DNA from: Bacillaceae bacterium IKA-2
GTDB lineage: Bacteria > Bacillota > Bacilli > Bacillales > Anaerobacillaceae
Direction: 5' to 3'
NCBI GenBank assembly: GCA_031761875.1
Contig: CP134492.1
Location: forward strand, 3,658,001 to 3,722,000
Length of the DNA: 64,000 nt
Both the position numbers and the translations under genes were made by a program. Numbering within the stretch: the stretch's first letter is position 1; each line of letters begins with the position of its first letter. Under the pieces are notes generated by a model that saw nothing but the letters and a program-made list of their open reading frames with translations, was not told where the DNA came from and did not search any database. This document shows, in pieces, positions 10,019 through 47,061 of the stretch.

Positions 10019-10060
10019 CGTTTTCACCTGTATTTTCATCTTTAAATTTATATTTCAAAA

Positions 10061-10080: not shown

Positions 10081-10138
10081 GGTAGCCACGAGTTAGTAGA
10101 AACATTCGAGAGACTAGGTGCTGAAGCTAAACAATAAG

Positions 10139-10163: not shown

Positions 10164-10235
10164 GAGTTCATATTTTCTGTGTCCCTAAAAGCAGGATCCT
10201 CGTACATTTATTATTGTAACTCGGAGTTGTAACAA

Positions 10236-10635: not shown

Positions 10636-12351
10636 TTAAAGAAAAATCTCCTCAACATACAGCTTAACTTCCTCAGCTGTTTCCATATTTAAAATTGACT
10701 CGATATGACTGGTAGTTTCTTCTTTTGAAAGTCTAGAAATTTGACTTCTTGCCGGTAAAATTGAAGTCGCACTCATACTAAACTCATCTAAACCTAATCC
10801 TAGCAAGATCGGAATTGCCCATTTGTCTCCTGCCATCTCCCCGCACATACCTACCCATTTCCCTTGGTTATGCGCTGCTTTGATGACCATACTGATTAAG
10901 CGTAAAATTGCTGGGTTATGTGGTTGATATAAATAAGCGACCCTCTCGTTCATACGATCACTAGCCATCGTATATTGAATGAGATCATTCGTACCAATAC
11001 TAAAAAAATCAACTTCTTTTGCAAATAAATCAGCGCAAACTGCAGTTGATGGTATCTCTACCATGATACCAACTTCGATATTTGAAGCGACATCTATACC
11101 CTCAGCATTTAATTTGGTTTGCTCTTCCATTAATAATGATTTTGCTTGACGGAATTCATCAAGAGTTGCAATCATTGGAAACATAATTTTTAAATTGCCG
11201 AACGCACTTGCACGCAACAAAGCTCGGAGCTGTGTACGGAACATATCTTGCATTTCTAAGCATAACCGAATCGCTCGTAATCCTAAAAATGGATTCATTT
11301 CCTTAGGAAGGTCCAAATACGAGAGTTCTTTATCGCCACCAATATCAAGAGTACGAATAACAACAGGTTTATTTTCCATACGCTCTAATACTGTTTTATA
11401 GGCATCAAACTGTTCATCTTCGGTTGGAAATTGAGTTCGATCCATATATAAAAACTCAGTTCGGTACAATCCTATACCTTCACCACCATTTTCTAGTACA
11501 CTTTTTACGTCAGCAGGAGTACCGATATTCGCTGCAAGCTCGACTTGGTGGCCATCTAGTGACAGTGATTTCTCATCTTTAAGCTTTGACCATTCCAACT
11601 TTTGAGCATTATATGCCATTATTTTTTCTTCATACAATGCTACAATCTCAGCGCTTGGATTTACTATTACTAATCCATCAATTCCATCAACAATGACTAA
11701 ATCACCCGTTTCGACACTCGCAGTTATGTTTTTCGTTCCGACGACTGCTGGTATTTCCATGGTTCTAGCCATAATCGCTGAATGTGATGTTCTTCCACCA
11801 ATATTAGTAGTAAAGCCTTTTACATATCTCCTATCTAACTCAGCTGTATCAGAAGGGGTTAAATCTTCTGCAATCACAATCACTTCTTCGGATATCAAAC
11901 TAGGATTGGTCATCGTGACACCGGTAAGATGACCTAAAACTCGCTTCGTCACATCACGAATATCCGCGGATCGTTCTTTCATATATTCATTATCCATGTT
12001 TTCAAACATTGTGATAAAAAAATTAGCCACTTCGTTTAATGCATACTCAGCATTTAGTTCTTCGCTGGTAATTTTATTAATGACAGCGTCTACTAATTCT
12101 GGATCGCTCAGTACTAATAAATGAGCTGAAAATATTTCTGCTTTATCTTCGCCTAATTCAGCAAGTGCCTTTTTTCTAATTATTTCTATCTCTTGCTTAG
12201 ATTTCTGCAACGCCTCTTGAAATTTATTAATTTCCTCTTCAAAAGACGTTACATGCTTTTGTTCGATCTTGAATTCTTGATGGACTAGTTTAAACGCTTT
12301 TGCAATGACAATTCCAGGAGAAGCTGCAATGCCGTTTATTTTTTTTGACAT
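10636..12351 (-). CDS. ptsI: PTS enzyme I (phosphoenolpyruvate-protein phosphotransferase)
   Basis: Transfers phosphate from PEP to HPr, the first step for all PTS sugars; cytoplasmic dimer. 571 residues is the usual length. The active site is His190 in [13 protein letters not shown]. The PEP-binding TIM barrel follows, with the family patterns [28 protein letters not shown] and GMCGEMAGD. The ATG overlaps the ptsH stop by one base (TAATG), so translation is coupled. It is the last gene of fruR-fruK-fruA-ptsH-ptsI. In most bacilli ptsHI follows ptsG, so linkage to fructose genes is unusual and suggests that fructose is the main PTS sugar here. Confidence 0.97.
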
Positions 12352-12614
12352 TATTCTCCTAAACCGCCTTTAATAACTTCTTCTAATGCAACTAAAGCCG
12401 CTTCAGCATCAGACCCTACACATTTAATCTCAACCTCTGCTCCTTTGCCTACTCCTAAAGACATAACACCCATAATTGACTTTAAATTAACTGACTTCCC
12501 TTTATATTCTAAAGTGATTTCTGACTCGAATTGGCCTGCTTTGTTAACCAATTGTGTTGCTGGTCTAGCATGAATTCCTGTTTCACTAGTAATTTTAAAT
12601 GTTTTTTTCATCAT
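12351..12614 (-). CDS. ptsH: Phosphocarrier protein HPr
   Basis: Small PTS phosphocarrier and, when phosphorylated on Ser46, CcpA co-repressor. Starting at the ATG of MMKKTFKIT puts the catalytic His at 15 ([11 protein letters not shown]) and the regulatory Ser at 46 ([13 protein letters not shown]), both at their canonical positions. That start also has AGGAG 11 bases upstream, whereas an upstream in-frame GTG would overlap the ribosome binding site. 87 residues, normal length. It lies between fruA and ptsI. A diverged paralogue without His15 is encoded at 38507-38767. Confidence 0.96.
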
Positions 12615-12716
12615 CTTTATCTTCACTCCTAAGAAATATTTTGTCCTACCCTAAAAACTCAGATAATTTAGAGGTTGGCTATATAGCTATTAAACCATAC
12701 ATCCACTGTTTTAACA

Positions 12717-26273: not shown

Positions 26274-28472
26274 TTAATTACTAGTTTTTTTTGTTTCAAA
26301 TAATATATTAGTTTTATAATCAAGACTTGCTTCTTCTGCAACACCAAGAGGGACGACACCGTTTGCAGCATCAGTATGCCCAATCATTCGGTTACTTGCC
26401 GCTACTTGACGTTGACGTTTCTTGATTGCTGTAAGTCTTTCTAAGGCAAGGTCTTTTCTATCTTCTCGAATATGTTCGAACTTAAACTCTAAATTACCCT
26501 TTAGGAATGCATCCTCATCTATAAACTGAATTTCTCGGTTACGTAAATTTAAGTAGAGTAAGTCACCTGTTTGAAGATATAAAATCCCCCCACCATCTAT
26601 TGCTTCAGGTGTCATATGGCCAATCGCCGCACCATAAGTTACACCTGAATAGCGACCATCACTAATTAATGTTGCTAGACGTTTTAACTTACGATTTGCA
26701 TTAATGTGTTGCATTGCTGTAAACATTTCTGGCATTCCAAATGCAATCGGACCTTGACCTGAAACGATAATAGAAATTTTTAGGATACTTTCCTCAACCA
26801 TCTTATCGAAAAGTTTATCGTAGTCATGATCCTTCCAATCTTGATAATGCTCAGGTGCATTTTCTTTAAGAAGAGCAAGCATATTTTCATGACTAAAGCT
26901 TTGTTTTTCTTTTAATTTTGGTAAAAGATTTGCATCTAGTAAACTTTGATTAGCATCAACTTCATTTTCATAGTACAGAACAAAAGCCGCTTTCTTGTCA
27001 AACTGGTCTAACTGTGTCGTTGTCATACCACTAATTTTTACAACGGCAGTTTCAAAGAAGTTTCCTGTTAATACGTCTACACCACTAAATGCTCTTTTTG
27101 GCTTTGAAAGAATCACAGGATTTTCTTTTACATTATCAGCTGATAAATTTTCCGTTTTCACTAAACGTTCACGCCACGTTTTTCCAGCTACAGTCGGTGC
27201 TTCAACATCCATCGGTACTCCATTTTCTAGTAACTCGTGGAATAACGTCTCCATACCTCTACTTTGACTATCACAACACTGTATCGCTAAAGAGAAGATA
27301 TCACGATCTTCTGTCAGACTATAGTTAAATAAATCTGGGATCGGATGTGCATGGTGAATTTCATCTAAATCCGATAGGCTAAACTTATAACCGCCGTATA
27401 ACATACCTGCAACGAGATGCATGATTAAATTCGTTGATCCGCCAGATGCACTGTGAATACGAATCCCGTTTCGAATGTTTGTTGCCATAATATTGGCAGC
27501 TCCAAAAACAGGGTTATTAATCATTGTTGCAAAACTATCAAGAGATTTATTTACTTGTGATTGATTAGGAGATTCCGTCAGAAGTTCCACAGCCGGATGT
27601 ACTAATCCTAAACCAGCGACAAGATGTCGTGAACTGTTTCCTGTACCGTTAAAGGCACAGACTCCGCCTTGTCCATCACAAGTCGCTACCGCTAAGCGCT
27701 TTTCATAATCTTTATGAGCTTCTTTCGTTATAATTCCTCGTTCTGTTGCACGTTCAAGCACACCCTGGAAAGCTGTATTTGACGAGCATTGTAAAATATA
27801 AGCCATTGCATCTTTAAGATCATCGGCAATATCACCAGCACCTTGGCTTTCAGCAGAGGCCGCAACTTCCCCTAACTCTTTAAAAAGTTCTTCTGGAATC
27901 GTTCCACCTTGTAATACGTGAGCCGGAGCAAATGTTGCAAAGAAAGGTGCTTCACCTCGGTATTGACGAATTCTGTCAAGATGAGCCATTGCACTAACTA
28001 CGCCAAGTGGTTGTTTATCACAACCTTGAATAACAAAAGCACCGTGGTAACTATGGGCTTCGATTTGATTTACAACCATTTGCGCTACAGCATTACGGCT
28101 TTGAAGTGAATAACTCATGCCTTGATTGCTTTGCGCAGTTCCATCACACATAACAGGGGTCGAAAAATAAAACGGAACTCCTCCATTTTGCCAAATACGT
28201 ATCGCTGCATGAGCAGAGGTTTTGAAATCCATAATATGCGCTGGATGATCGGAAGATCCCCCAATAATTGCAATACGCGGCGCGTTTTCTTCTAAGCGAT
28301 TATAAATTTCCTCAAGAGTCCAATCTGGTACCCCCCCTTCGTACCCAGAACCTAATATTTGTTTTGAACGATCAAGTAACCCAGCAACAGTAATCGGTTC
28401 ATTTGCTTTCCCTTGAACATTGTCTCGATATGGATTTACTTGGTTGGTGATATTAGGATATTGTACAGACAT
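26274..28472 (-). CDS. IlvD/Edd-family sugar-acid dehydratase
   Basis: An Fe-S dehydratase (732 residues, longer than the usual 550-660) that removes water from an aldonate to give the 2-keto-3-deoxy acid. Cluster ligands are likely the Cys in PVMCDGTAQSN, in IQGCDKQPLGV and in CDGQGGVCAFNGTGN. The SASGGSTNLIMHL and C-terminal SDGRYSGVTYGAAIGH blocks are family hallmarks. It differs clearly from the YjhG/YagF-type enzyme at 47230. The context (2-keto-3-deoxy-pentonate dehydratase and semialdehyde dehydrogenase downstream) points to a pentonate such as D-xylonate or L-/D-arabinonate. AAGGAG nine bases before the ATG. Confidence 0.88.
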   Translation of the reverse strand: MSVQYPNITNQVNPYRDNVQGKANEPITVAGLLDRSKQILGSGYEGGVPDWTLEEIYNRLEENAPRIAIIGGSSDHPAHIMDFKTSAHAAIRIWQNGGVPFYFSTPVMCDGTAQSNQGMSYSLQSRNAVAQMVVNQIEAHSYHGAFVIQGCDKQPLGVVSAMAHLDRIRQYRGEAPFFATFAPAHVLQGGTIPEELFKELGEVAASAESQGAGDIADDLKDAMAYILQCSSNTAFQGVLERATERGIITKEAHKDYEKRLAVATCDGQGGVCAFNGTGNSSRHLVAGLGLVHPAVELLTESPNQSQVNKSLDSFATMINNPVFGAANIMATNIRNGIRIHSASGGSTNLIMHLVAGMLYGGYKFSLSDLDEIHHAHPIPDLFNYSLTEDRDIFSLAIQCCDSQSRGMETLFHELLENGVPMDVEAPTVAGKTWRERLVKTENLSADNVKENPVILSKPKRAFSGVDVLTGNFFETAVVKISGMTTTQLDQFDKKAAFVLYYENEVDANQSLLDANLLPKLKEKQSFSHENMLALLKENAPEHYQDWKDHDYDKLFDKMVEESILKISIIVSGQGPIAFGMPEMFTAMQHINANRKLKRLATLISDGRYSGVTYGAAIGHMTPEAIDGGGILYLQTGDLLYLNLRNREIQFIDEDAFLKGNLEFKFEHIREDRKDLALERLTAIKKRQRQVAASNRMIGHTDAANGVVPLGVAEEASLDYKTNILFETKKTSN

Positions 28473-28651: not shown

Positions 28652-29899
28652 CTAATAGCTCATGATAGTAGGTTGACTAAGAATTTCAAATTCATTTCTA
28701 TCCTTTATCTCTTCTATAAGAGCTTCAGATACCCATATTTCTTTAATATCTAATGTGTTTTTAATTCGAACAATTCTTACTTTTTTCATATCCAATGTAT
28801 TGCATGTCTTAACACCTGCTTTGACCGCTAACTCACTTGTTTCCATGAACATCGGCACTTTTACTACGTTAGTTACTGTACTCGTCAGTGAATTGGCATA
28901 GCCTTTATGCCATTCAATCGAATCAAACACATCTTTTGTTGTAATATCAGCCAGCCCTAAACCATTCGCATTTCCATGCGTTTTCTTTGTTAAGCCTAAT
29001 ACAACAATTTTCCTCACATCAGGTCCTCCTGTAGCGTAGGGCGTTGCGTATCGACCTGTTATATTTGGGTCCATACCATCACCAGAAATATCTTTACCAA
29101 TTTCATCTACAACAAGCACATCAATCTTCTTAAACATCAACTTTGCCATTAAATCTTTTGCCTCAAGTAATAGATCTGGTTCTTCCGCTATGATTCTTTC
29201 GGCTGGAAGGGCAACTATTTTGGCAATGTGGTCGTATGCATTTTCTATTGATCCTAATCCAAATAAGAAATTAACTTTTTTTAAAATTATTTTTGCCATT
29301 TCAGGAACATGATTGGCCATATGCTCAAATCCATATAAATGAGCAGCCTCTGCTCCCTTTTGCTTTCCTAAACCTATTGTGAGCATTTTCAATAAGCCAC
29401 TTTCCACTGGTCCTCGAAAAGCAGTATGGGCTTTAATTCTGTTAATAATTATAACTTGGTCTGCCTCATAGGCATGCTTATCTACATATACGGGTAATCC
29501 ATTTGGCAATTTTCCTATTTTTACTACTTCCATACTAGAAATGATCGGCGCATCAACAAATTCCTCTGTAATCCCTAAATCTTCCAATACTTCCTTTTGC
29601 CCTTCACCACTTGCACCACCATGGCTTCCCATTGCGGGTACTATAAATGGGTTGGCGCCAACAGATTTTACTACCTTGACTACTTCCCTAACTAAAATTT
29701 CAATATCCGCAACTCCGCGACTGCCTACAGCAATCGCAACACGATCACCTTTTGTTATCCGATCTAGTACATTTGCTTGAACGATCACTTTATGAACTTC
29801 ACTTGCAACACAGGCTAATTCGGGTGCATGAAATTTTTGTTCAACTTTTACCATTATTGGTAAAGGTATATCTTTAAGCATTTTTTTTATAATATCCAC
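28652..29899 (-). CDS. LarA homologue 1 (nickel-pincer-dependent racemase/epimerase family, DUF2088)
   Basis: Family members use the nickel-pincer nucleotide (NPN) cofactor to move a hydride at the C2 hydroxyl of 2-hydroxyacids; known activities include lactate, malate and gluconate epimerisation. The 415 residues show the signature AMGSHGGAS with His93 and the second active region RIKAHTAFRG (His158), with Lys171 as a possible cofactor-binding Lys. The N-terminal AVGSRGVADIE is typical. A GTG start has AAGGGGG at good distance. It lies between TRAP transporter 1 and the IlvD/Edd dehydratase, so C2 epimerisation of an imported aldonate is the best inference; lactate racemisation is unlikely here. 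Confidence 0.9.
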   Translation of the reverse strand: MDIIKKMLKDIPLPIMVKVEQKFHAPELACVASEVHKVIVQANVLDRITKGDRVAIAVGSRGVADIEILVREVVKVVKSVGANPFIVPAMGSHGGASGEGQKEVLEDLGITEEFVDAPIISSMEVVKIGKLPNGLPVYVDKHAYEADQVIIINRIKAHTAFRGPVESGLLKMLTIGLGKQKGAEAAHLYGFEHMANHVPEMAKIILKKVNFLFGLGSIENAYDHIAKIVALPAERIIAEEPDLLLEAKDLMAKLMFKKIDVLVVDEIGKDISGDGMDPNITGRYATPYATGGPDVRKIVVLGLTKKTHGNANGLGLADITTKDVFDSIEWHKGYANSLTSTVTNVVKVPMFMETSELAVKAGVKTCNTLDMKKVRIVRIKNTLDIKEIWVSEALIEEIKDRNEFEILSQPTIMSY

Positions 29900-30095: not shown

Positions 30096-31376
30096 TTAAG
30101 ATTTAAAGCTAAGTAAGAATAAAGAAAGCTCTGGTATTAATATTAAGATGATAAGTGTAAGTAACATCGCCACGAAAAATGGAACAATTGCTTTTGATAA
30201 TTCCTCAATCGATAAACCAGAAATACCTGAAGCGACAAATAAATTTACTCCTAATGGTGGTGTAATAAAGCCAATTGCTAAGTTAACAACCATGATAATT
30301 CCAAAGTGAATTGGGTCATAACCAATACTAATTGCAATCGGTAATAAAATTGGCGTTAAAATAATGATTGCTGCTAATGTATCCATAAAGCAACCAACAA
30401 TTAATAATAAGATTGTTATTAATAGGATAATAACAATTGGGTTTTCAGAGATAGATAACATCCACTGAGCTATTTGGTTTGGAATTTGTTTCATCGTTAA
30501 TAACTTTCCAAATGCCGTTGCAGTACCGACGATAATCAAAATTGTTGCTGTCGTTAAAGCAGCGTTAATTAATACGCTCGGTAATTCTTTAATTTTTAGC
30601 TGACGATATAATACTAATCCGGCAAATAAACCGTATACTACTGCAATAACAGCCGCTTCCGTTGGTGTGAAAATACCACCATAAATACCGCCTAAAATGA
30701 TGATTGGAATGAGGAGTGCCCATTTGGCATCCCAAGAAGCCATTACGATCTTTTTAATTGAAGTTTTTTCACCTGAACCTGTGTACCCGTGTTTGCGTGA
30801 ATATAAATAAGCATAAATCATTAATGCTAATCCTACTAATAATCCTGGGATAATCCCTGCAATAAACAAATCTCCGATTGATACACTACCTACCACACCA
30901 TAAATAACCATCGGGATACTTGGCGGGATAATAACCCCTAATGAACCTGCAGAGGCAACAACTGCAGTTGCGAATTTCTTATCGTAACCTTGGCGTATCA
31001 TTGCCGGTATCATAATTCCACCAATCGCCGCAACAGTCGCTGGTCCAGAACCGGAAATCGCTGCAAAAAACATACATGTGATAATCGTCGCTATCGCAAA
31101 TCCACCAGTCTTATTACCTACCAATGCATTTGCTACATTAAAGAGTCGGTCAGATATGCCACCTCTCCCCATAATTTCCCCTGCTAATATAAAGAACGGA
31201 ACTGCAAGTAATGGAAATGAATCAGTTCCTGTAACCAATCCCATCACTAAAAAATCAACCGGTAGTGCTCCTGTAATAAGCAGAGTAATTAATGTTGCTA
31301 ATCCAAGAGAAATCCCAATCGGGACACTTAATATTAAAAATAAAACAAACGATCCAAATAGTATTGCCGTAGTCAT
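30096..31376 (-). CDS. TRAP transporter 1, large permease (DctM)
   Basis: The Na+-coupled large membrane subunit of a tripartite transporter for organic or sugar acids. The 426 residues have 11-12 membrane segments and family motifs (PLLAVPFFILAGEIM, GSGPATVAAIGGIMIPAM, GIFTPTEAAVIAVVYG, FGIIMVVNLAIGFITPPLGVN, written here as key blocks). GGGGGTGA precedes the ATG. The dctQ stop is 11 bases upstream. The cluster continues with LarA homologue 1. Confidence 0.95.
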   Translation of the reverse strand: MTTAILFGSFVLFLILSVPIGISLGLATLITLLITGALPVDFLVMGLVTGTDSFPLLAVPFFILAGEIMGRGGISDRLFNVANALVGNKTGGFAIATIITCMFFAAISGSGPATVAAIGGIMIPAMIRQGYDKKFATAVVASAGSLGVIIPPSIPMVIYGVVGSVSIGDLFIAGIIPGLLVGLALMIYAYLYSRKHGYTGSGEKTSIKKIVMASWDAKWALLIPIIILGGIYGGIFTPTEAAVIAVVYGLFAGLVLYRQLKIKELPSVLINAALTTATILIIVGTATAFGKLLTMKQIPNQIAQWMLSISENPIVIILLITILLLIVGCFMDTLAAIIILTPILLPIAISIGYDPIHFGIIMVVNLAIGFITPPLGVNLFVASGISGLSIEELSKAIVPFFVAMLLTLIILILIPELSLFLLSFKS

Positions 31377-31387: not shown

Positions 31388-31912
31388 CTAATCTTCTCTA
31401 AGTCGTTCTAAATCAGTTTTTACAGTGAAATCACCTTTACCGAGCAATGTTTTGAACTGATTGAATAAATTTTGAATCAGTCGAATTGCTGTTAATGCCA
31501 TCCCGAATGGAGCAGCTATATAAACGTATGCCATTGGAATTTGGTTTGCCGGTGACTTTTGTCCTAACCCTAGTAATTTCTCAATTATAGAGTATCCATA
31601 GTAGACAACAACGAGGGCAAAAACTAAAAATAATAGATTTCCAATAATGCTAATTACTAATTTTCCTCTATCTTTGAAGAGCATTAAAAAAGCGTCTACC
31701 CTAATGTGTCGTTGCTTTTTAACCCCATAGCTAATCCCGATGTAAACAAGCCAGATAAAGCTGTATCTTGCTAATTCCTCTGACCATGATAGTGAGTTTT
31801 CCATTACATAACGCATAAAAACCTGTAAAAAAATAACAATAACCATTAAAGTAGAAAAAAAGACAAGAAACACTTCTTCAAAATGTGCATCCAGCCACTT
31901 GATTATTTTCAT
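31388..31912 (-). CDS. TRAP transporter 1, small permease (DctQ)
   Basis: A four-helix membrane subunit linking binding protein and DctM. The 174 residues contain the DctQ block SLSWSEELARYSFIWLVYIG. The ATG of MKIIKWLDAHFEE is preferred because GGAGGAGG lies just upstream. A longer in-frame start 60 bases earlier has none. Confidence 0.92.
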   Translation of the reverse strand: MKIIKWLDAHFEEVFLVFFSTLMVIVIFLQVFMRYVMENSLSWSEELARYSFIWLVYIGISYGVKKQRHIRVDAFLMLFKDRGKLVISIIGNLLFLVFALVVVYYGYSIIEKLLGLGQKSPANQIPMAYVYIAAPFGMALTAIRLIQNLFNQFKTLLGKGDFTVKTDLERLRED

Positions 31913-31981
31913 CACTATACCTCCTCCCAGATGGCACATAAGCTCTATTAAAATAAATATAAAAACAGTCAATATATAATT

Positions 31982-32033: not shown

Positions 32034-33080
32034 TTATTGAAGTTTTTCGATTTCCGCTAAGTACTCAGCAACAATTTCTGTACCAATGCTTTCAGCGTGC
32101 TTATCGATTACTGGACGAATTTTTTCTGCAAAGCGTAGGTGTTCTTCAGGCGTAATTTCACTGAATTGCATATTTTCTTTTAATGCTTCTAAGCTTTCAT
32201 CTGCAACTTGACGATTTCTTTCACGGTTATATTGGCCAGCTTCTACTGCGGCGTTACTAAGAATTTCTTGTTGTTCAGCCGTGTATCCATCCCAAATTTC
32301 CTTACTAAACAAGAAGATAAATGGTGTATATACATGACCTGTACCAGAAACATAATCTTGAACCTCATTAAATTTACTTAATAAAATTGTCGGATATGGA
32401 TTTTCCTGCCCGTCAACAGTACCTTGTTGCATTGCCGCGAACAGTTCAGGGAAGGCCATCGGCGTAGGGTTGGCTCCTAATTCCCTCCAAGCATCTAAAT
32501 GAATTTCATTTTCCATCGTACGAATTTTTAACCCTTGTAGATCCTCCATTTTTTCTACTGGACGCGTACTGTTTGTTAAGTGACGGTAACCATTTTCCCA
32601 CCAAGCTAAACCAACAAGACCTTGGTCCTCAAGATAAGTAAACATTTTATCACCAAATGGTCCATCTAACAGTTTATCGGCTACTTCTTCACTAGGCATT
32701 GTGAATGGTAAATCAAAAACGCCATACTCTTTAACAAAGTTAACTAGTGGTGATGTTGAAGGAATTGTGATCTCCAACGTTCCAAATTGTAGCATTTCAA
32801 TTGCAGCACGGTCATCAGCTACTTGACCAGAATGGTAAACTTCAACTTCGAAATCATCTGTTTGACTCTCGACGATTTCCTTAAACTTCATCGCACCTTC
32901 ATATTCTGGATGCTTATCATTAATACCGAGACTAATACGTAAAGTTTGTGTTTCTCCAGAACCACTTGAAGCGCTTTCATTTTCATTACTATCACCTGAC
33001 GCTGGTTCGTTACTGCCACCCCCACAAGCTGCTAAAATTAGAACTAAAGCCATAAGTAAACCTAAAAGTTTTATTTTCAT
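32034..33080 (-). CDS. TRAP transporter 1, substrate-binding lipoprotein (DctP)
   Basis: An extracytoplasmic binding protein of 348 residues. A signal peptide with lipobox LILAACGG makes it a lipoprotein. The family ligand region LKIRTMENEIHLDAWRELG contains the Arg that usually holds the substrate carboxylate, followed by MQQGTVDGQENP. Sugar or sugar-acid specificity is inferred from the catabolic genes downstream. GGGGGA lies before the ATG. It is the first gene of its operon, with two strong copies of the shared operator upstream. Confidence 0.95.
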   Translation of the reverse strand: MKIKLLGLLMALVLILAACGGGSNEPASGDSNENESASSGSGETQTLRISLGINDKHPEYEGAMKFKEIVESQTDDFEVEVYHSGQVADDRAAIEMLQFGTLEITIPSTSPLVNFVKEYGVFDLPFTMPSEEVADKLLDGPFGDKMFTYLEDQGLVGLAWWENGYRHLTNSTRPVEKMEDLQGLKIRTMENEIHLDAWRELGANPTPMAFPELFAAMQQGTVDGQENPYPTILLSKFNEVQDYVSGTGHVYTPFIFLFSKEIWDGYTAEQQEILSNAAVEAGQYNRERNRQVADESLEALKENMQFSEITPEEHLRFAEKIRPVIDKHAESIGTEIVAEYLAEIEKLQ

Positions 33081-33495: not shown

Positions 33496-34488
33496 CTATT
33501 TTTCTTTCAAACTTACTTTTTCTTTTACTTCTTTATTAAAAAGGTATGTTGGATAGTAGCCAGCTAATACGTCTGCAACATTTTGAGCTGTTTTACGTTT
33601 CAGTTCCAGTTGTGCCTCTTCTGAATACCAAGCAACATGAGGGTTAATAATGACATTTTCCATCTTTAATAATGGATTATCTTTTTGAATTGGTTCTTCC
33701 TCCGTTACATCTAAACCAGCACCTGCAATTTTACCTACTTCCAACGCATGAATTAATGCCTTTTCATCAATAATAGGTCCTCTAGCAGTATTAATAATAA
33801 ATGCCTCTTTTTTCATTAAATCAAACTGCTCGTCACCGATCATGCCATGTGTAGCTTCAATAAGTGGTGCATGAACGGAAATGAAATCAGACTGTTTACA
33901 CAATTCATTAAGTTCTACTAATTCAACATCTAAATCCTTTGCCACTTCCTCTGGAACAAAGGGATCATAAGCAACAACTTTAATCCCAAAAGCTTGAGCT
34001 TTTTCCGCTAATGTTTGCGGAATCCGGCCAAGTCCAACAAGACCTAATACACGCCCGCGCAGACGATATATCGGCACACTTACTTTATAATCCCAATTCC
34101 CTGCTTTTACCTCATTATTTAAACGAACAACTTTTCGTGCACATGCGATAATTAATGCAAAAGCGTGGTCAGAAACTTCATCCATACAATAGTCTGTAAC
34201 ATTTCCGACGATTATTCCATTTTCAGTAGCGGCATCAATATCAATTGTATTAACACCAACTCCATATCTTGATACTACTTTAAGATTCGGATGAGATTCC
34301 AACACTTTTCGTGAAATAGGTGCATATTGATTTATAAGCGCATCTGCCCCTTTAGCTACTTTAATTACTTCTTCCTCTGTTTTACATTGCGCTCGAATAA
34401 GCTCTGCATCAACAGTTGCTAGCACTTCCTCCTCAGGTGCTAATGTTGAAAACTCATAATCTGTAATAACCACTTTAAATTTACTCAT
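33496..34488 (-). CDS. D-isomer-specific 2-hydroxyacid dehydrogenase family protein
   Basis: An NAD-dependent oxidoreductase of 330 residues. The Rossmann motif is GLVGLGRIPQTLAEKAQAFG, and the catalytic Arg (NTARGPIID), Glu (VTEEEP) and His (INPHVAWYSE) are present. It resembles the C-terminal-binding-protein-like branch. The second Met is preferred as start, with GAGGG eight bases upstream. It is the last gene after dgoD, KDG kinase and KDPG aldolase. It could reduce a 2-keto acid such as pyruvate or hydroxypyruvate made by the pathway; substrate not proven. Confidence 0.88.
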   Translation of the reverse strand: MSKFKVVITDYEFSTLAPEEEVLATVDAELIRAQCKTEEEVIKVAKGADALINQYAPISRKVLESHPNLKVVSRYGVGVNTIDIDAATENGIIVGNVTDYCMDEVSDHAFALIIACARKVVRLNNEVKAGNWDYKVSVPIYRLRGRVLGLVGLGRIPQTLAEKAQAFGIKVVAYDPFVPEEVAKDLDVELVELNELCKQSDFISVHAPLIEATHGMIGDEQFDLMKKEAFIINTARGPIIDEKALIHALEVGKIAGAGLDVTEEEPIQKDNPLLKMENVIINPHVAWYSEEAQLELKRKTAQNVADVLAGYYPTYLFNKEVKEKVSLKEK

Positions 34489-34566
34489 ACTCATCGCCCT
34501 CTCTCTCTAATATGTTTTATCAATCTATTTTCATAAAAATGATTAATACCAAATAAAGTTTATTTA

Positions 34567-35205
34567 TTAAGCTCTCGCTTTCATTACTTCTTCAATAAAT
34601 TTTAACGACTTTTCAGTTATTTTCGTTAATGCTTGTTGATCCATTACACCTTTCGTGTTCACTAAAGTACTTCCTACACCAACAGCTACCGCTCCTGCTT
34701 TCATGTATTCACCTACATTATCAAGATCAATTCCTCCTGTTGGCATAAGCGGAATTTGTGGTAGTGGTCCATGAATAGCTTTTAAGTACCCTGGACCAAA
34801 CGCATTAGCAGGAAACACCTTTATTATATCTGCACCACTTTCATATGCTCTAAGGATTTCAGTAGGTGTTAATGCTCCAGGAATACTAATTACACCATAT
34901 CGTTTTGTCAATTTAATCGTTTCTTCATCAACGATTGGCGAAAAAATAAACTTTGCTCCAGCCATGATTGCGGCCCTAGCGGTTTCTGAATCAAGTACAG
35001 TTCCCGCACCAACGATCACATCATTACCAAGTTTCGATGTAACCTCTTCAATTAATGTTAGAACCTTTGGCGTTTCAACAGTAATTTCTAATGTTTTCAC
35101 TCCACCTGCATAAAGTGCTTTTGCAATAGGTAAAATATTTTCTGAATTAGCTCCACGAATAACTGCAACAATACCATTTTCTTTAATTTGTTGTAATAAA
35201 TCCAT
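34567..35205 (-). CDS. 2-keto-3-deoxy-6-phosphogluconate/galactonate aldolase (KDPG/KHG aldolase)
   Basis: A class I aldolase cleaving KDPG or KDPGal to pyruvate and glyceraldehyde 3-phosphate. 212 residues after choosing the start MDLLQQIKENG, which has GGAGG five bases before it. The Schiff-base Lys is in DIIKVFPANAFGP; other family blocks are IVAVIRG, LEITVETP and GAGTVLDSETA. It lies downstream of the kinase of the same pathway. Confidence 0.93.
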   Translation of the reverse strand: MDLLQQIKENGIVAVIRGANSENILPIAKALYAGGVKTLEITVETPKVLTLIEEVTSKLGNDVIVGAGTVLDSETARAAIMAGAKFIFSPIVDEETIKLTKRYGVISIPGALTPTEILRAYESGADIIKVFPANAFGPGYLKAIHGPLPQIPLMPTGGIDLDNVGEYMKAGAVAVGVGSTLVNTKGVMDQQALTKITEKSLKFIEEVMKARA

Positions 35206-35221
35206 TTTATCCTCCATTTCT

Positions 35222-36172
35222 TTAGCGACTAACATCCTCGGTAGGGGCGTTAATAAAGCGTTCAACCTCGTCTTCTTCAGGAAGTCCTTCTACATCACCG
35301 CTCACCATCGTAACCATCGCTCCAACTGCATTCCCTCGTTGAACAGCTTTTTCAATACTAAAGCCATTTAATAGTCCCGATGTAAATCCTGCCGCAAACC
35401 CATCCCCCGCACCTATAGGATCGACCACCTGTTTCACTTCAAACCCAGGAACTAGTTTACTTTCTTCTTTCGTGAAGTAGTGAGCCCCTTTTGCTCCAAC
35501 TTTTAGTACGACGATTGATGGCCCATGTTGTAAAAACAGTTCCCCTAGCTTTTCTGGGTCAGTTTCGCCGAACATGAAAGTTCCCTCATCAAGTCCCGGT
35601 AAAATGATATCTACTTGAGCGGCAATCTCTAATAATACTTTCCGTGCTTTTTCCTCAGACCAAAGCTTTCTTCTTAAGTTTGGATCAAAAATAATCTGTA
35701 CTGAATGTTCTTTAGCAATTTTTATTGCTTCTAGAACCATTTCATAACAGCTATCACTCAAAGCAGGGGTAATTCCAGAAATATGTAGATATTTTGCTTT
35801 TGAGATGTACTCTGGAATTAAGTCCGCTTTACTCATCTGACTAGCCGCTGAACCTTTTCGGTAATATTCCACCCTTACTTCAGTGGGACTTCTTAATTCT
35901 TTAAAGTAAAGACCCGTCGGTGCTGTCGCATCAAATTTCACTTGACTAACATCGACCCCTTCACCACGAATAAAAGAGAGCATCGCTTTACCTAATTCAT
36001 CGTTCCCTACGCGGCTGATCCACCCAGCTTCGTGCCCTAAACGTGTCAATCCAATCGCATAATTAGATTCAGCACCTCCAAATTTTCTCGTATAGGTATT
36101 TGCATACCTCATTAATCCAGTTGTATCTGGAGTAAAAAGCACCATCGTTTCTCCAAATGTGACAATATCCAT
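35222..36172 (-). CDS. kdgK: 2-keto-3-deoxygluconate/galactonate kinase (PfkB family)
   Basis: Phosphorylates 2-keto-3-deoxygluconate or -galactonate at C6. The 316 residues have the N-terminal FGETMVLFTP and GGAESNYAIGLTRLG blocks, and the C-terminal DPIGAGDGFAAGF with catalytic Asp. The ATG of MDIVTFGE is chosen for the GGAGG eight bases upstream. It lies between dgoD and the aldolase, completing galactonate to pyruvate plus triose phosphate. Confidence 0.93.
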   Translation of the reverse strand: MDIVTFGETMVLFTPDTTGLMRYANTYTRKFGGAESNYAIGLTRLGHEAGWISRVGNDELGKAMLSFIRGEGVDVSQVKFDATAPTGLYFKELRSPTEVRVEYYRKGSAASQMSKADLIPEYISKAKYLHISGITPALSDSCYEMVLEAIKIAKEHSVQIIFDPNLRRKLWSEEKARKVLLEIAAQVDIILPGLDEGTFMFGETDPEKLGELFLQHGPSIVVLKVGAKGAHYFTKEESKLVPGFEVKQVVDPIGAGDGFAAGFTSGLLNGFSIEKAVQRGNAVGAMVTMVSGDVEGLPEEDEVERFINAPTEDVSR

Positions 36173-36191
36173 ACTTAAGTCCTCCATCCTA

Positions 36192-37340
36192 TTACCACTC
36201 AGCTACTGTCCCGTCACGGTGTCGCCATACCGGATTTTTCCAATTATGTCCTACTTTAGCCATTTTACGAACTTTTTCCTCATCAATTGTAATACCTAAA
36301 CCTGGTCCTTGTGGAATTTTGACATGACCATCTTTATACGTAAATACTGAAGGATCAGTAATATAATCTAGGAGATCATTCCCCTTGTTATAATGTATCC
36401 CTAGGCTTTGCTCTTGAATAAAAGCATTATGCGCGGTTGCATCAAGCTGCAATGCTGAAGCTAGTGCAATTGGACCTAATGGACAGTGTGGGGCAAGAGC
36501 AACATCATATGCTTCAGCCATCGAAGCAATTTTCTTACATTCTGTAATACCACCAGCATGCGACAAATCTGGTTGGATAATATCTACATAACCATCAGAA
36601 AGCAGTCCTTTAAAATCCCATCTTGAGAACATCCGCTCACCAGTAGCAATTGGAATATTCGTATTTCTAGCTATCTCTTTTAAGGCTTCATTATTTTCTG
36701 GTAGTACTGGCTCTTCGATAAACATTGGCCGATATGGTTCTAATTCTTTGACAAGAATTTTTGCCATTGGTTTATGCACTCGCCCATGAAAGTCAATCCC
36801 AATACCAACATAATCCCCTACTGCCTCACGTACAGCAGCGATTCTAGAAATTGCTTGATCAATTTTCTCGTAAGAATCAATATACTGTAATTCTTCAGTG
36901 GCATTCATTTTAACTGCTGTAAAACCTGCATCGACAACTTCTTTTGCAGCCTTTCCTACATCATTTGGTCTATCTCCACCAATCCAAGAGTAGACACGGA
37001 TTGAATCACGACACGCCCCACCTAAAAGTTGATATACTGGTGCGTTAAAATATTTCCCCTTAATATCCCATAGAGCCTGGTCAATACCTGCAATCGCACT
37101 CATTAATATTGGCCCACCTCGATAAAAACCTGATCGATACATGACATTCCAATGGTCTTCAATTCTTAACGGGTCTTTCCCAATTAAATAATCTGCCATT
37201 TCAGTTACAGCTTCTTTAACCGTACTTGCACGACCTTCCACAACAGGCTCTCCCCAGCCTACAATCCCTTCATCAGTTTCAATTTTCAAAAAGCACCAAC
37301 GAGGTGGAACAATAAAACATTCTAAACTTGTTATTTTCAT
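36192..37340 (-). CDS. dgoD: D-galactonate dehydratase
   Basis: An enolase-superfamily enzyme converting D-galactonate to 2-keto-3-deoxygalactonate. The 382 residues equal the length of E. coli DgoD. Metal and catalytic residues are visible: [11 protein letters not shown] (Asp and His), [23 protein letters not shown] and the His of [13 protein letters not shown]. The C-terminal [16 protein letters not shown] is also DgoD-like. GAGGGTG precedes the ATG. It is the first gene of a galactonate operon with promoter and shared operator upstream. Confidence 0.94.
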
Positions 37341-37612: not shown

Positions 37613-38494
37613 CTATTGTGAAATAAAATGATTTGTTAAGCGACCTAATTTTTCAATTTCAACTGAAACTATATCGCCTGATTTAATCCAAACTCTTTTT
37701 TCCTCAGAATAACCGACAATAACCCCCTCAGGCGTCCCTGTTAAAATTATATCACCTGGCTTTAACGTCATATGTTTAGAAGCATAACTTACGACTTCGT
37801 GACAATTAAATATCATATCAGATGTATTTGAATCTTGTCTTAATTCCTCATTTAGCCACGTTTTTATCTTCAAATTATTTGGTTCGTCGATCTCATCTTT
37901 ACTTACTAAATATGGGCCCGCTGGACAAAAGTCGTCACAAGATTTCCCAATTAACCACTGCGAACTTTTAAATTGCAACTCTCTTGCTGACACATCATTA
38001 GCTACACAATATCCAAAAATGTACTCATCCGCTTGTTCTGGGTTAATATCCTTCGCTTCTTTTCCAATAACGATGGCAAGTTCAGCCTCATAATCTACCT
38101 GTGTAGAATTTTCAGGAATTTTAATCGTACTTCCTGCACCGGTTAGACTATTATTGAATTTACTAAATAATATCGGTTCTTTCGGATGCGTCAACCCACA
38201 TTCATCAGCATGTCTGCGGTAGTTTAAACCTACACAAATAATTTTTTCTGGTTTTGATACACAGGGACCAAAAGTAAGTTCTGACTCGTCTATAAATAAT
38301 CTATCTTCTTCACTAGTCTCTTCTAATAATTGTCTTAACAAATTCATACCGCCGTTTGTTAAGAGTTCATCGATCGTTACCGGTGCTTTAACATTTGTGC
38401 TTTTAACCGCATTTTGAACATCAAAAATCCCCTGCTCTGTTTTTATCCCTAAACAAAGCTTATTTTCTTTATAAAAATTAACTAAATACATCAT
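37613..38494 (-). CDS. Fumarylacetoacetate hydrolase family protein (2,4-diketo-3-deoxy-sugar-acid hydrolase-like)
   Basis: A metal-dependent C-C hydrolase or decarboxylase of 293 residues. Family blocks are ICVGLNYRRHADE, EPILFSKFNNSLTG, YEAELAIVIGKEA (metal ligands), VANDVSARELQ and GDIILTGTPEGV. It is of the hydrolase type, unlike the KdaD-like dehydratase at 24354. Next to an SDR it recalls the L-fuconate/L-rhamnonate routes, in which an SDR makes 2,4-diketo-3-deoxy acids and this family cleaves them to pyruvate plus lactate or another acid. Two ATGs compete for one GGAGG; either may start. Substrate inferred. Confidence 0.85.
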   Translation of the reverse strand: MMYLVNFYKENKLCLGIKTEQGIFDVQNAVKSTNVKAPVTIDELLTNGGMNLLRQLLEETSEEDRLFIDESELTFGPCVSKPEKIICVGLNYRRHADECGLTHPKEPILFSKFNNSLTGAGSTIKIPENSTQVDYEAELAIVIGKEAKDINPEQADEYIFGYCVANDVSARELQFKSSQWLIGKSCDDFCPAGPYLVSKDEIDEPNNLKIKTWLNEELRQDSNTSDMIFNCHEVVSYASKHMTLKPGDIILTGTPEGVIVGYSEEKRVWIKSGDIVSVEIEKLGRLTNHFISQ

Positions 38495-38506: not shown

Positions 38507-38767
38507 TTAAGTTAAAAACTCGATAACTTTTTCTAACGCTGCTTCACAATCTTTCCCAACAACTCTAACTGTTATCTGGTCATTATTTTTTAATTGAAGT
38601 GTTATTAACCCTAAAAAACTCTTAAGATTTATTTCTATGATATTTCCATTGAGAATTTTTTTTAAAAAGATTTCTGATGCGAAAGGTTGAACTAATTTAC
38701 TTAACTCAATAATCGTTTGCTCTTCGGAGATACTAATGATAATTTCCTTAAAGGCTGTTTTCTCCAT
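38507..38767 (-). CDS. HPr/Crh-like protein lacking the catalytic His
   Basis: An 86-residue protein whose C-terminal half, EINLKSFLGLITLQLK and VGKDCEAALEKVIEFL, follows HPr ([28 protein letters not shown]) closely, including the Ser at the Ser46 position. The N-terminal GIHARPA motif is gone, and no His exists in the protein. It therefore cannot carry phosphate in the PTS but could be a target of HPr kinase, like Crh. AAAGGAG precedes the ATG. It lies between an FAH hydrolase and an SDR gene in a sugar-acid operon, an unusual place. A regulatory role, or allosteric partner of a pathway enzyme, is inferred. Confidence 0.8.
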   Translation of the reverse strand: MEKTAFKEIIISISEEQTIIELSKLVQPFASEIFLKKILNGNIIEINLKSFLGLITLQLKNNDQITVRVVGKDCEAALEKVIEFLT

Positions 38768-38800
38768 TTTTTATCCACTCCTTTTCATAAAATAATCTTG

Positions 38801-39559
38801 CTAATCCATTAACATACCACCATTAACTTCAATGATTTCTCCGACAATATAATCTGAATATTCAGATGCCAGAAAAAGTAATGATCCCACCGTTTCTTTT
38901 GGGGTTCCTTCTCTACCCAATGGGATGTTAGTTACTTGTTTTTTTCTGATTTCCATAGGAGAGAAACGGTCATGAAAAGGTGTACTTATGACCCCAGGCG
39001 CAATTCCGTTAACAATTATCCCATACTCAATCAAATCTTTTGCTAAAGCTCTTGTGAGAGTACTAACTCCTCCTTTAGCCGCCGCATATGCGATGGAACC
39101 GTATCCACCACCATTCCTTGCCGCAACCGAAGTAACATTAATAATTTTTCCCTTTTGTTGTTTCTTCATCATCGGTAAAACTGCTTTTGTAACTAAATAG
39201 ACAGATTTTAGATTAATATCGATAACTTGGTCCCAGAGTTCTTCATCTAAATCAACTAGTCTACTTCTTTTAATTAAACTGCCTGCATTATTGATTAATA
39301 CATCGATTTTACTAAAATGAATGTTAATAGCCTTCATCATTTCATCAATATCACCTTTACTTGAGACATCGCCGTGAACAGCAATCGCTTTTCTACCCTT
39401 TTTCTTAATATCAGCAACGACTTCTAATGCCTCACTTTGACTGCTGTTATAATGAACAATTACATCGGCTCCAAAATCAGCAAAGGCTAGCGCCGCCGCT
39501 CGACCTATGCCAGTACTACTTCCGGTAATAAAAACTACTTTATCTTCAAATGAATACAT
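38801..39559 (-). CDS. Short-chain dehydrogenase/reductase, sugar-acid type
   Basis: A classical SDR of 252 residues: TGSSTGIGRAAALA (cofactor), NNAG, catalytic Ser in NVTSVAARNGG, and Tyr/Lys in YAAAKGG. The family includes KduD, gluconate 5-dehydrogenase and 2-keto-3-deoxy-L-fuconate dehydrogenase. The neighbouring FAH hydrolase favours the last type, oxidation of a 2-keto-3-deoxy acid at C4. AGGAG nine bases before the ATG. It is the first gene of the SDR, HPr-like, FAH operon, with the best operator palindrome of the window in front. Confidence 0.88.
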   Translation of the reverse strand: MYSFEDKVVFITGSSTGIGRAAALAFADFGADVIVHYNSSQSEALEVVADIKKKGRKAIAVHGDVSSKGDIDEMMKAINIHFSKIDVLINNAGSLIKRSRLVDLDEELWDQVIDINLKSVYLVTKAVLPMMKKQQKGKIINVTSVAARNGGGYGSIAYAAAKGGVSTLTRALAKDLIEYGIIVNGIAPGVISTPFHDRFSPMEIRKKQVTNIPLGREGTPKETVGSLLFLASEYSDYIVGEIIEVNGGMLMD

Positions 39560-39692: not shown

Positions 39693-40454
39693 CTATCCCA
39701 ACCCATAACCTAATTTTCCAGATAATTCGTTACTTGCTAACGTTAATAATTCAATATTTTCCTTCATTTTTTCTTCATTAATTTTCATTACTGGTGCGGA
39801 GATACTAATCGAAGCGACAACATCTCCTGTATAATTTCTAATTGGCAAAGCAATACAATAAACACCAGGCTCGTTCTCTTGATTATCGATAGAATATCCC
39901 CTTTCTCTTATAGCTTCCAACTCACGTAAAAAATCTTCTTTATTGGTTAGTGTATTTTCAGTGCGTTTTATGTACTGATAATCCTCAAGCAATTTCTCTA
40001 ATTCTGAATGAGACTTATTAGCTACTAACGCCTTGCCTACCGCACTACAATGAATAGGTATACGTCTACCAATTCTAGAATAAAGAACTGATGCAGAGGA
40101 ACTTTCAACCTTATCGATGTACACCCCTTCTTTTCCATCTAAAATAACAAGGTGAACTGTTAAGTCTGTTTTTTGAGAAAGAGAAATTAAATATTCCTTA
40201 GCTAATGTTCTAATATCTAAACTATGCATAACAAAGTTACCACGTTCAAATAATTTCAGTCCTAATTTATACTTACTATTTTCCAAATCTTGTTCAATGT
40301 AATGATGCTTTTTAAGCGTTTTTAAAAGTGAATGAACTGTACTTTTATGTAACATCATTCTTTCACTAATTTCAGTAATTTTTAATTCAGTATTATGCTC
40401 GTCAAATAAATCTAATATTTTCAATGCTCTATCGACAGATTGTATAATTGGCAA
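39693..40454 (-). CDS. IclR-family transcriptional regulator (KdgR-like)
   Basis: Probable local repressor of the sugar-acid island. The 253 residues contain an N-terminal winged HTH (SVDRALKILDLF, then HKSTVHSLLKTLKKH) and the IclR effector domain (SRIGRRIPIHCSAVGKALVA, YSIDNQENEPGVYCIALPI). A TTG start is well supported by AGGGAGG nine bases upstream. IclR proteins related to KdgR bind AAAAC-N3-GTTTT-type palindromes and are released by 2-keto-3-deoxy acids; the same motif recurs before at least eight transcription units here, so I infer this is the regulator. Confidence 0.9.
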   Translation of the reverse strand: MPIIQSVDRALKILDLFDEHNTELKITEISERMMLHKSTVHSLLKTLKKHHYIEQDLENSKYKLGLKLFERGNFVMHSLDIRTLAKEYLISLSQKTDLTVHLVILDGKEGVYIDKVESSSASVLYSRIGRRIPIHCSAVGKALVANKSHSELEKLLEDYQYIKRTENTLTNKEDFLRELEAIRERGYSIDNQENEPGVYCIALPIRNYTGDVVASISISAPVMKINEEKMKENIELLTLASNELSGKLGYGLG

Positions 40455-45251: not shown

Positions 45252-45974
45252 CTAATCTAGCATTTCTGCTTCACGAGCGATATCTGGTATAGAGGGAAAC
45301 TCTTGATCAACCAATATAAAAAAGTGCAAATCGTATTTTAATACCTCTGGATATTTTTCGAATATACCTACTTTTCCATGTTTCTCTGGTTTCATATTGA
45401 TGAGTAACGATTGAGCTTCATTTTTGTCGAATGTCATCGTAACTGTGGTCTCTAATTGGTCTATTAACAAGTATCCCAAGAAGTCATAGTTAGTAAAGCT
45501 GTGAAACACTGCGACAAACGTAGTAATCTCTCCCTGCTTTTCATAGTGGATTTCATCTGCTTCCGCTAAGATATCCTTCGTCCATGCAAAAGGATGATCT
45601 AGAGGGGACATCTCATTAATGAAAGTGTGGGAACTCGTTGTCTGTCTCCATACTCCACCACTATCTATAAAAAGCTGCTCACCTTCTAAATAGATATCAA
45701 AACTAAATTGGGTATCGTCAGATACAGGGATAGACATGCTATATTTTGAAATATCTTCTGACCAAAAGCCTTCGCTTATTAAAGCGATTTCATCATCAAA
45801 ATAATACGTGCTCTCGACTTGATAATCATCTAAACTGACGTCATCTAACAACTTGAGCCAACTATTATAATGGGCTTCTTGTGAGCTTGGAAAAAAAGAC
45901 AATCCTATACTTAACCCTAATATTACAGCTAATAAAGGGATCAACCACTTTTTTATCGGCCTATAAATAACCAT
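45252..45974 (-). CDS. Membrane-anchored extracytoplasmic protein of unknown function
   Basis: 240 residues. One N-terminal signal/anchor helix (WLIPLLAVILGLSIGLSFF), then a soluble domain with alternating short strands that looks like a LolA/LppX-type or other beta-rich fold. No Cys and no recognised catalytic motif. It overlaps the molybdopterin oxidoreductase gene by 14 bases, so it is probably a partner of that enzyme outside the membrane. Start uncertain: several codons compete for one GGGGGG. Confidence 0.7.
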   Translation of the reverse strand: MVIYRPIKKWLIPLLAVILGLSIGLSFFPSSQEAHYNSWLKLLDDVSLDDYQVESTYYFDDEIALISEGFWSEDISKYSMSIPVSDDTQFSFDIYLEGEQLFIDSGGVWRQTTSSHTFINEMSPLDHPFAWTKDILAEADEIHYEKQGEITTFVAVFHSFTNYDFLGYLLIDQLETTVTMTFDKNEAQSLLINMKPEKHGKVGIFEKYPEVLKYDLHFFILVDQEFPSIPDIAREAEMLD

Positions 45975-47061
45975 CAAGATCATAGCCCCCCATCACCTGC
46001 CAATATCCTTCTGCTCTTTCCTCAGTAAACTCTAATCGTTCGATCCACTTTACCGATTTATATCCATACATCCCGGGATGATACAGGCGACATGGGTAGC
46101 CTTGAGGAATGACTAATTGTAATCCATCGAACTCAAATACTAGCATCATCCCTTCATCCACTATCTGTGATAGCCTAAACGAGTCATAATATACTTGGTC
46201 CCCTGAAAAAGCTGTGGCATAGGGACCTAAGGGGGTAATAAGATGGGCTTCAATAATATCTTTTATCAGAATTCCCTTCATTTCAACATTTCGAACACTC
46301 CACCCAGTGACACAGTGAAAATCATCTACGATCGTTAAAGAGGGGAGACGAATCATATCATTCATTGTTAGTGTAATCGAATTTTCCACTAGGCCATCGA
46401 TGGTAAAACTCCAGTCTGATTCTTTATATCTGGGATAATCACTCGTTACATTATAGATGCGAAAATAGCCTCTTCTTTTAGCTGATGTATCTTCGGTATC
46501 AAGGATAGGAAGAAGCCATTTAATTCCAGCACCAATAAAAATAAACAAGATTCCTAAAGTAGTAAATTTAACAAAATCTCTTTTTTCTAAATGGTTTTCT
46601 GTAATCGCTTCTGGTACCGGAGTTTTCCCCCTCCACCAGTTTGGCCAGGGTATTTTCTTCCCTATTAAATGACCAAAACTATGAAAGAGAACCCATGGTA
46701 AAAATAAAAACGTAAACCAACTATGTACAGATACAGCAATATTACTGATACCAGCTGACACAGACGCTTGAAAATACATGATCAATCCAGAGAAAACCCA
46801 AACAATAATAAAGGAAACATTGAAGTAAACATTAAAGGATTTAAGATAAGGTTTATTGATAATATTCTGAAACACAGATTTTAGACTGAATATGATAACA
46901 ACTGCGTATATAAATGCCACCCAAAGATGAAACGAAACTAACGGGAAATGTAGTTCATTAGACCATGTCCGAGTTTGTGGGAAATACAGAAACAAACCGG
47001 AGCTCAGAAGCAAAATAAACAAAAGCCCATGTACGTGATGAATCCAGTTAAGACGTATCAT
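45961..47061 (-). CDS. Membrane cytochrome b-type domain fused to a sulfite oxidase-like molybdopterin domain
   Basis: Residues 1-135 form four to five membrane helices with well-placed His (8, 11, 45, 113, 127, 131), like b561-type dihaem domains. A further helix (about 167-184) leads to a molybdopterin-binding domain of the sulfite oxidase/YedY type (about 200-366), with the molybdenum-ligand Cys250 in DDFHCVTGWSVRNVEMKG. In E. coli the comparable MsrP and MsrQ are two proteins; here both parts are one chain of 366 residues. Reaction unknown (sulfoxide or other oxyanion reduction, or oxidation). AAGGAG before the ATG. It is not obviously part of sugar-acid metabolism. Confidence 0.85.
   Translation of the reverse strand: MIRLNWIHHVHGLLFILLLSSGLFLYFPQTRTWSNELHFPLVSFHLWVAFIYAVVIIFSLKSVFQNIINKPYLKSFNVYFNVSFIIVWVFSGLIMYFQASVSAGISNIAVSVHSWFTFLFLPWVLFHSFGHLIGKKIPWPNWWRGKTPVPEAITENHLEKRDFVKFTTLGILFIFIGAGIKWLLPILDTEDTSAKRRGYFRIYNVTSDYPRYKESDWSFTIDGLVENSITLTMNDMIRLPSLTIVDDFHCVTGWSVRNVEMKGILIKDIIEAHLITPLGPYATAFSGDQVYYDSFRLSQIVDEGMMLVFEFDGLQLVIPQGYPCRLYHPGMYGYKSVKWIERLEFTEERAEGYWQVMGGYDLDGYL

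Follow-up and report, generated by a model that had tools for sequence, protein, structure and literature searches.

The window, i.e., the whole stretch of 64,000 nucleotides of the genome of Bacillaceae bacterium IKA-2 that was analysed, carries on its minus strand, at exactly 38507-38767, an open reading frame with an ATG start that encodes a protein of 86 residues without a single His. This His-less HPr-like protein, named HPrL here, belongs to a sugar-acid catabolic cluster, where it is flanked, as described in the initial annotation, by SDR and FAH-family genes, located 33 nt upstream and 12 nt downstream, respectively. The genes and features are the following:

12351-12626, minus strand: ordinary HPr (motif GIHARPAT), a comparison paralogue outside the system, with genes for enzyme I and a fructose-type PTS next to it (named from their sequences)
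26274-28472: large IlvD/EDD-type dehydratase, after the TRAP genes
28652-29899: nickel-pincer-cofactor-dependent isomerase group 22, after the TRAP genes (NF052515, 553 bits)
30096-31376, minus strand: TRAP large permease DctM (PF06808, E 1.2e-128)
31388-31972, minus strand: TRAP small permease DctQ (PF04290, E 4.2e-39)
32034-33080, minus strand: TRAP solute-binding protein DctP (PF03480, E 5.5e-87)
33496-34494, minus strand: D-2-hydroxyacid dehydrogenase, PGDH-like (PF02826, E 5.4e-63)
34567-35265, minus strand: KDPG/KHG aldolase, KdgA-like (PF01081, E 1e-45)
35222-36187, minus strand: PfkB-family kinase, KdgK-like, the name KdgK coming from the context (PF00294, E 4.6e-64)
36192-37340, minus strand: galactonate dehydratase-like enzyme of the enolase superfamily, DgoD (NF010624, 720 bits for a cut-off of 311)
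37613-38494, minus strand: FAH-family hydrolase, a window-specific neighbour (Pfam FAA_hydrolase, E 1.2e-76)
38507-38767, minus strand: HPrL, 86 residues (Pfam PTS-HPr, E 1.3e-11)
about 38778-38783, minus strand: Shine-Dalgarno-like AAGGAG before HPrL (read from sequence)
38801-39559, minus strand: SDR-family dehydrogenase, a window-specific neighbour (Pfam adh_short_C2, E 3.6e-61)
39693-40454, minus strand: IclR-family regulator of the cluster (PF01614, E 1.1e-54)
45252-45983: neighbour of the molybdopterin-binding oxidoreductase, with no Pfam match
45961-47061: molybdopterin-binding oxidoreductase, at the far end of the cluster (PF00174)

The nearest NCBIfam family of the FAH-family hydrolase is 2,4-didehydro-3-deoxy-L-rhamnonate hydrolase, under the cut-off, and the dctP gene of the window is situated about 5.4 kb from HPrL.

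HPrL passes the curated Pfam threshold of PTS-HPr (PF00381; 44.8 bits for a cut-off of 23) and stays below that of TIGR01003, the stricter HPr subfamily of NCBIfam (35.1 for 47.9). Among PDB sequences, Crh chains match it best (E 3e-4). The protein is predicted to adopt the open-faced beta-sandwich HPr fold, according to an AlphaFold2 model obtained from an input of three sequences (pLDDT 86.7, pTM 0.77). When this model is compared to known structures with VIA-align, the best match is HPr 3ihs (Z 11.7 over 79 residues, 2.2 A), with Crh 1zvv at Z 11.3; among the best 50 rows, the top 34 (Z 7.3-11.7) are all HPr, Crh or NPr, and the rows beyond HPr (NiaR, RCK domains), which start at Z 6.3, are taken as a common arrangement. 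With Foldseek, 13 rows reach a probability of 1.00 and all are HPr or Crh, even if their E-values are weak (6e-4 to 3e-2), one of the 838 matches being at E ≤0.001. The initial assignment of this open reading frame as HPr/Crh-like is thus upheld at the levels of both family and predicted fold.

Relationship of HPrL to HPr and Crh

The complete loss of His15 and the conservation of the Ser46 region, which had both been noticed in the window protein, are found again throughout the family. In the window protein, MAFFT alignment places Glu15 at the His15 site and Gln17 at the Arg17 site, and the Ser46 motif INLKSFLGL is intact, Ser50 of HPrL being the equivalent of HPr Ser46. Among 51 aligned HPrL sequences, the His15 equivalent is Glu in 45, Asp in 5 and Ser in 1, i.e., acidic in 50 and never His, and position 17 is Gln in 40. 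Lys49, Ser50, Leu52, Gly53, Leu54 and Thr18 are, among others, invariant, and the b2-b3 hairpin is extended by four residues, with Gly41 in 50/51. The HPrL gene of Oceanobacillus caeni (L037, about 9960-10222) was left out of this alignment; its reading is split over two frames, because the gene is broken or because of an error in the sequence.

With HPr (PtsH), HPrL shares the fold, the Ser46 region and PF00381, but it differs by its placement in a separate clade and by its lack of the His15 and Arg17 pair that defines a PTS phosphocarrier. With an acidic residue in place of His15, HPrL cannot carry the PTS phosphate, and the absence of the His15/Arg17 active site implies that it takes no part in PTS phosphotransfer.

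The host genome encodes three PTS-HPr proteins: ordinary HPr, Crh and HPrL. The host Crh, with its motif GLQARPAALF, has Gln15 and Arg17, and its locus reads yvcK-whiA-crh next to clpP (names of WhiA, YvcK and ClpP read from sequence), in the WhiA/YvcK neighbourhood known for Crh from B. subtilis; the HPrL gene is outside such a neighbourhood. If Crh is defined by a residue other than His at position 15 with Arg17 kept, HPrL is set apart by its Gln17. HPrL and Crh of Bacillus have in common the HPr fold, the absence of His15, the Ser46 motif and their occurrence in Bacilli, whereas HPrL differs by the acidic residue at position 15, Gln17, a b2-b3 hairpin longer by four residues, and its sugar-acid/TRAP clusters. 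The initial parallel with Crh is therefore appropriate for a His-less, HPr-like protein in family and fold, but it goes no further, since HPrL is not the host Crh and has lost Arg17. That HPrL could be the Crh orthologue was considered and is ruled out by the separate host Crh gene at its whiA-like locus and by the supported clade that HPrL forms on its own.

This clade is recovered in a tree of 90 rows, in which a long stem branch, supported at 97/97, separates the 53 HPrL rows from all others; the alignment is short, with few columns, so that the deeper branching is uncertain. The other rows were labelled by motif (16 Crh, 15 HPr and 6 other), and as the motif used for HPr and Crh contains Arg17, these labels cannot show that Arg17 is kept, for which the host's own HPr and Crh are cited instead. 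The tree was built without L037, L038 and L128-L130 (similar rows) and without L012 and L133 (repeats of other rows).

HPrL orthologues are present in all of the seven genomes that were examined in the host family (the host's own and six others, of one genus), in 48 among 397 of the order (49 matches were listed, and a Crh-like one, L087 of G201, was dropped) and in 8 of 398 genomes sampled across the class, of which six fall outside the order. In this class scan, the eight HPrL rows score at least 91 bits, and the 13 other rows, at 51 bits or less, were not counted as HPrL. Among 398 genomes spread over the phylum, the host's own alone passes 1e-12. A contig scan adds three loci, in two Oceanobacillus species and in Geomicrobium halophilum; the latter and Oceanobacillus caeni belong to the class Bacilli. 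By sequence, HPrL thus appears as a distinct clade, met so far in Bacilli only.

HPrL is under purifying selection in close pairs, with dN/dS values of 0.01-0.10 in the eight pairs that could be computed among 13 listed, some of which share a locus (two pairs gave no dS estimate and three were of unequal length). This selection and the orthologues in the host family indicate that the reading frame did not arise by chance.

The 54 genomes containing HPrL have from 2 to 17 PTS-HPr matches each. In one of them, G119 (99% complete), there are just two matches at E 1e-5, HPrL (L079) and a gene of Crh type (L144), so that this search gave no HPr of the ordinary, His-bearing kind. In G006, two HPr genes are located about 2 kb apart (L142).

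Conserved neighbourhood, HPr kinase and cre-like sites

The neighbourhood of HPrL was compared at 58 loci, i.e., the window, the three loci of the contig scan (possibly of the same species as some other genomes counted), and 48 and six loci of the order and class scans, respectively. Homologues of the neighbouring genes were defined as tblastn matches to single reference proteins (E ≤1e-10, with 40% coverage or more). Within 9 kb of HPrL, DctQ is found at 56 loci, DctM at 55 and DctP at 50, and dctM is on the same strand as HPrL at 54. The other genes are less constant: an AEC-type carrier at 35 loci, DgoD at 31, KdgA at 30, KdgK at 29, PGDH-like at 28, GntK at 23, RpiR at 22 and a 6-phosphogluconate dehydrogenase-like gene at 20. 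At least one of DgoD, KdgK, KdgA, PGDH-like, GntK and GntZ is nevertheless present at 50 loci, in line with the placement of HPrL in a sugar-acid catabolic cluster, and seven of the eight loci devoid of these six enzymes retain TRAP genes within 9 kb. The conserved neighbour of HPrL is thus a TRAP transporter, usually together with sugar-acid genes.

The SDR and FAH genes that flank HPrL in the window do not provide this conserved context. The same gene had been proposed to be sought in other SDR-FAH operons; among the loci read, the order SDR-HPrL-FAH occurs in the window alone. SDR homologues are within 9 kb at 10/58 loci on any strand and at 7/58 on the same strand, and FAH at 2/58, so that an SDR-FAH context was rejected. 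The expectation of a linkage conserved in other genomes is hence verified, but for TRAP genes instead of SDR and FAH.

The gene directly upstream of HPrL (same strand, within 400 bp) is DctM at 22 loci, AEC at 12, PGDH-like at 12, DHDPS at 4, DgoD at 2 and SDR at 1, with no reference gene at 5; at 28 of the 58 loci, it is thus AEC, PGDH-like or DHDPS, not dctM, that directly precedes HPrL. Homologues of the molybdopterin-binding oxidoreductase come directly after HPrL at seven loci. A same-strand dctM is missing at four loci, which are diverse. TRAP genes are on the opposite strand at L038 and also at L069, where the HPrL cluster has regulators of the DeoR and LacI types (read from sequence); L085 has the order DgoD-HPrL-AEC, with a split DgoD, and at L127 HPrL precedes a ribose-5-phosphate isomerase-like gene (name read from sequence).

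The window itself is particular in its TRAP genes. Its DctP is 28-57% identical to that of other HPrL loci (49 loci) and 65-76% identical to that of L108, L110-L112, L116 and L118, which have this TRAP type and no HPrL nearby. As it is closer to the latter, the window seems, from these identities, to pair an enzyme cluster of the HPrL type with a different type of TRAP.

In the converse approach, a dctM search at 1e-150 gave matches in 67 of 397 genomes, and twenty dctM regions without a nearby HPrL match were read; a profile search found HPrL in none of the twenty. Among the dctM relatives of at least 70% identity, L107, L109, L113 and L117 resemble sugar-acid TRAP clusters and have no HPrL. 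The existence of such clusters indicates that HPrL is neither needed for transport nor essential for a cluster of this kind.

The availability of an HPr kinase, on which the initial annotation relied, is established for the host genome, which has two copies. More generally, HprK (TIGR00679) is found in 52 of the 54 genomes containing HPrL, above the curated cut-off in 51, and in all 49 well-assembled ones. The match of G001 (79.9 bits) is below the cut-off and contains internal stops, and G003 and G005, which are 80% and 62% complete, have no match. B. subtilis has hprK, and as the control of this search matched Lactococcus lactis only, its misses say little. The second host HPr kinase (L154:6908-7867; genome 2274928-2275830) scores 332.9 bits, with the N and C domains of Pfam Hpr_kinase; genes in its vicinity read, by sequence, as a short-chain reductase and a MaoC-like gene. 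This kinase gene is distant from HPrL, HPr and Crh, and a second HprK beside HPrL was for this reason rejected. At least two HprK are also present in G025, G128, G376 and G554.

Sites resembling cre, which differ at one position at most from WTGNNARCGNWWWCAW (the consensus as given in an excerpt of PMC4591507), occur in the roughly 400 bp that precede dctP at 19 of 42 loci, while 1.6 are expected from mononucleotide shuffles; these 42 are the usable ones among 57, the rest having no same-strand dctP or too little DNA. A stricter pattern, without mismatch, is found at 8/48 loci. Judging from these sites, many HPrL operons are probably under the control of CcpA, by whatever co-effector.

Proposed role of HPrL

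We propose, as a reading with an even chance of being right, that HPrL would be a cluster-dedicated, PTS-independent regulator of the HPr-Ser-P type, coupling sugar-acid uptake to the glycolytic state. The sugar acids concerned would be of the aldonate type, in gene clusters of Bacilli. The proposal builds on the predicted fold, the residue pattern, the separate clade, the purifying selection, the TRAP linkage, the presence of a kinase gene and the cre-like sites in front of many dctP genes. The parts of this proposal differ in strength: HPrL is quite probably a cluster-dedicated HPr-type regulator, its action through Ser phosphorylation is somewhat favoured, and the TRAP permease is put forward tentatively as its partner. 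HPr kinase/phosphorylase would phosphorylate Ser50 when fructose-1,6-bisphosphate is high, and the Ser-P and unmodified forms would then differ in their binding to a protein of their own cluster. This protein could be the TRAP permease DctQM, the most constant one of the cluster. Sugar-acid uptake would then go down, in the direction that we infer, in glycolytic plenty, as an inducer exclusion built into the operon.

The serine and its adjoining hydrophobic patch are kept, in genomes with HprK, which is most simply interpreted as a second reader of the HPr-kinase signal, dedicated to the cluster. Ser46 may be kept for structural reasons, and E. coli HPr has Ser46 without HprK. As for the partner, not only the enzymes but also the regulators vary by locus (RpiR by family search, IclR/GntR in the window and, as judged by sequence, types such as LacI or DeoR), while TRAP genes are almost always present, which makes the permease the most economical choice. 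The permease is nevertheless not singled out, given the similar operons without HPrL and the co-divergence values (rho 0.54 for HPrL-DctM, compared to 0.77 for both DctQ-DctM and, at 31 loci, HPrL-DgoD, the sets of pairs being different). No DctQ tail or motif marking the HPrL-positive systems was seen by eye in the C-terminal part, and no gene fusion naming a partner was noticed, the open frames around the listed HPrL matches being of 142 residues at most. The four loci lacking a same-strand dctM, the 28 loci at which HPrL follows an AEC, PGDH-like or DHDPS gene, and, in the window, the DctP type and the distance of dctP from HPrL also count against the proposal. With this rho of 0.54 and no such DctQ feature, the permease stays tentative, and control of an enzyme and a CcpA co-effector role are live rivals.

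Inducer exclusion by HPr-Ser-P acting on a transporter is known in lactic acid bacteria, but with ordinary HPr and other transporter classes. To our knowledge, no control of TRAP transporters by HPr-kinase signalling is known. According to excerpts of PMC9006882, TeaD, a universal stress protein of Halomonas elongata, modulates the TRAP transporter TeaABC and is, like HPrL, encoded with it; it belongs, however, to an unrelated, ATP-binding family and not to the HPr type, and is an analogy only. Each half of the proposal thereby has a precedent, in TeaD for the TRAP transporter and, for direct action on a protein by Ser46 state, in the effect of Crh on an enzyme, which is described below. That HPrL would be an HPr-type regulatory subunit of TRAP transporters, gating them by the glycolytic state through a phosphoserine switch, is a doubtful, though conceivable, extension.

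One of the two live rivals is a Crh-like function, in which HPrL-Ser-P would bind CcpA and repress its own operon at cre sites. The cre-like sites before dctP, the conserved Ser motif and the rank of Crh as best PDB sequence match are in line with it. Arg17, present in the host HPr and Crh, is however Gln in most HPrL, the N-terminal half of the known CcpA-binding face is changed, and the host already has HPr and Crh, HPrL genomes in general having at least two PTS-HPr matches. A freely diffusing co-effector would, moreover, need no operon linkage, and the window shows no overall excess of cre-like sites (17 for 13.05 expected), the sole single-mismatch site of the regions scanned there (39734) being inside the IclR gene. 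We therefore consider this function unlikely. That HPrL directly regulates an enzyme of the pathway, be it the dehydratase, a kinase or a dehydrogenase, is similarly unlikely. It has a precedent in Crh, which acts directly on the methylglyoxal synthase MgsA according to its Ser46 state (excerpt of PMC9631020), and DgoD is the protein with which HPrL co-diverges best. No enzyme is constant, however, the commonest, DgoD, being present at about half of the loci and none of the six at eight, even if some absences are possibly due to the flanks of about 8 kb and to contig ends.

Still less probable is a phosphorylation-independent adaptor, in which the acidic residue at position 15, almost always present, would permanently substitute for phosphohistidine and Ser46 would be only a helix cap; Glu and Asp are poor replacements for phosphohistidine, several residues besides Ser can cap a helix, and this serine is invariant (51/51). 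Finally, the idea that HPrL is a functionless copy of HPr, decaying or selfish, which the split frame of L037 could evoke, can be practically discarded in view of the low dN/dS, the invariant motifs and the conserved linkage.

The HPr fold and the signalling logic of the proposed cluster-dedicated regulator are already known, and so are HPr and Crh as the carriers, in Bacilli, of the HPr-kinase signal. The HPrL clade and its TRAP linkage appear new, although such an absence is unproven: a full-text literature search, with subscription papers mostly outside its reach, retrieved no description of the clade, of its acidic position 15 or of the linkage to TRAP sugar-acid genes, and nothing joining HPr, a TRAP transporter and Crh. 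If the proposal is true, HPrL would be a third carrier of this signal, deeply separate, conserved, maintained by selection and bound to a single kind of uptake system, meaning that catabolite signalling has cluster-dedicated readers, and TRAP transporters would gain a candidate regulator of 86 residues. Other His-less HPr-like proteins exist in the same class (L133:7971-8255, L103, L106 and L151-L153); they have no supported grouping with HPrL and, where read, are located in other contexts.
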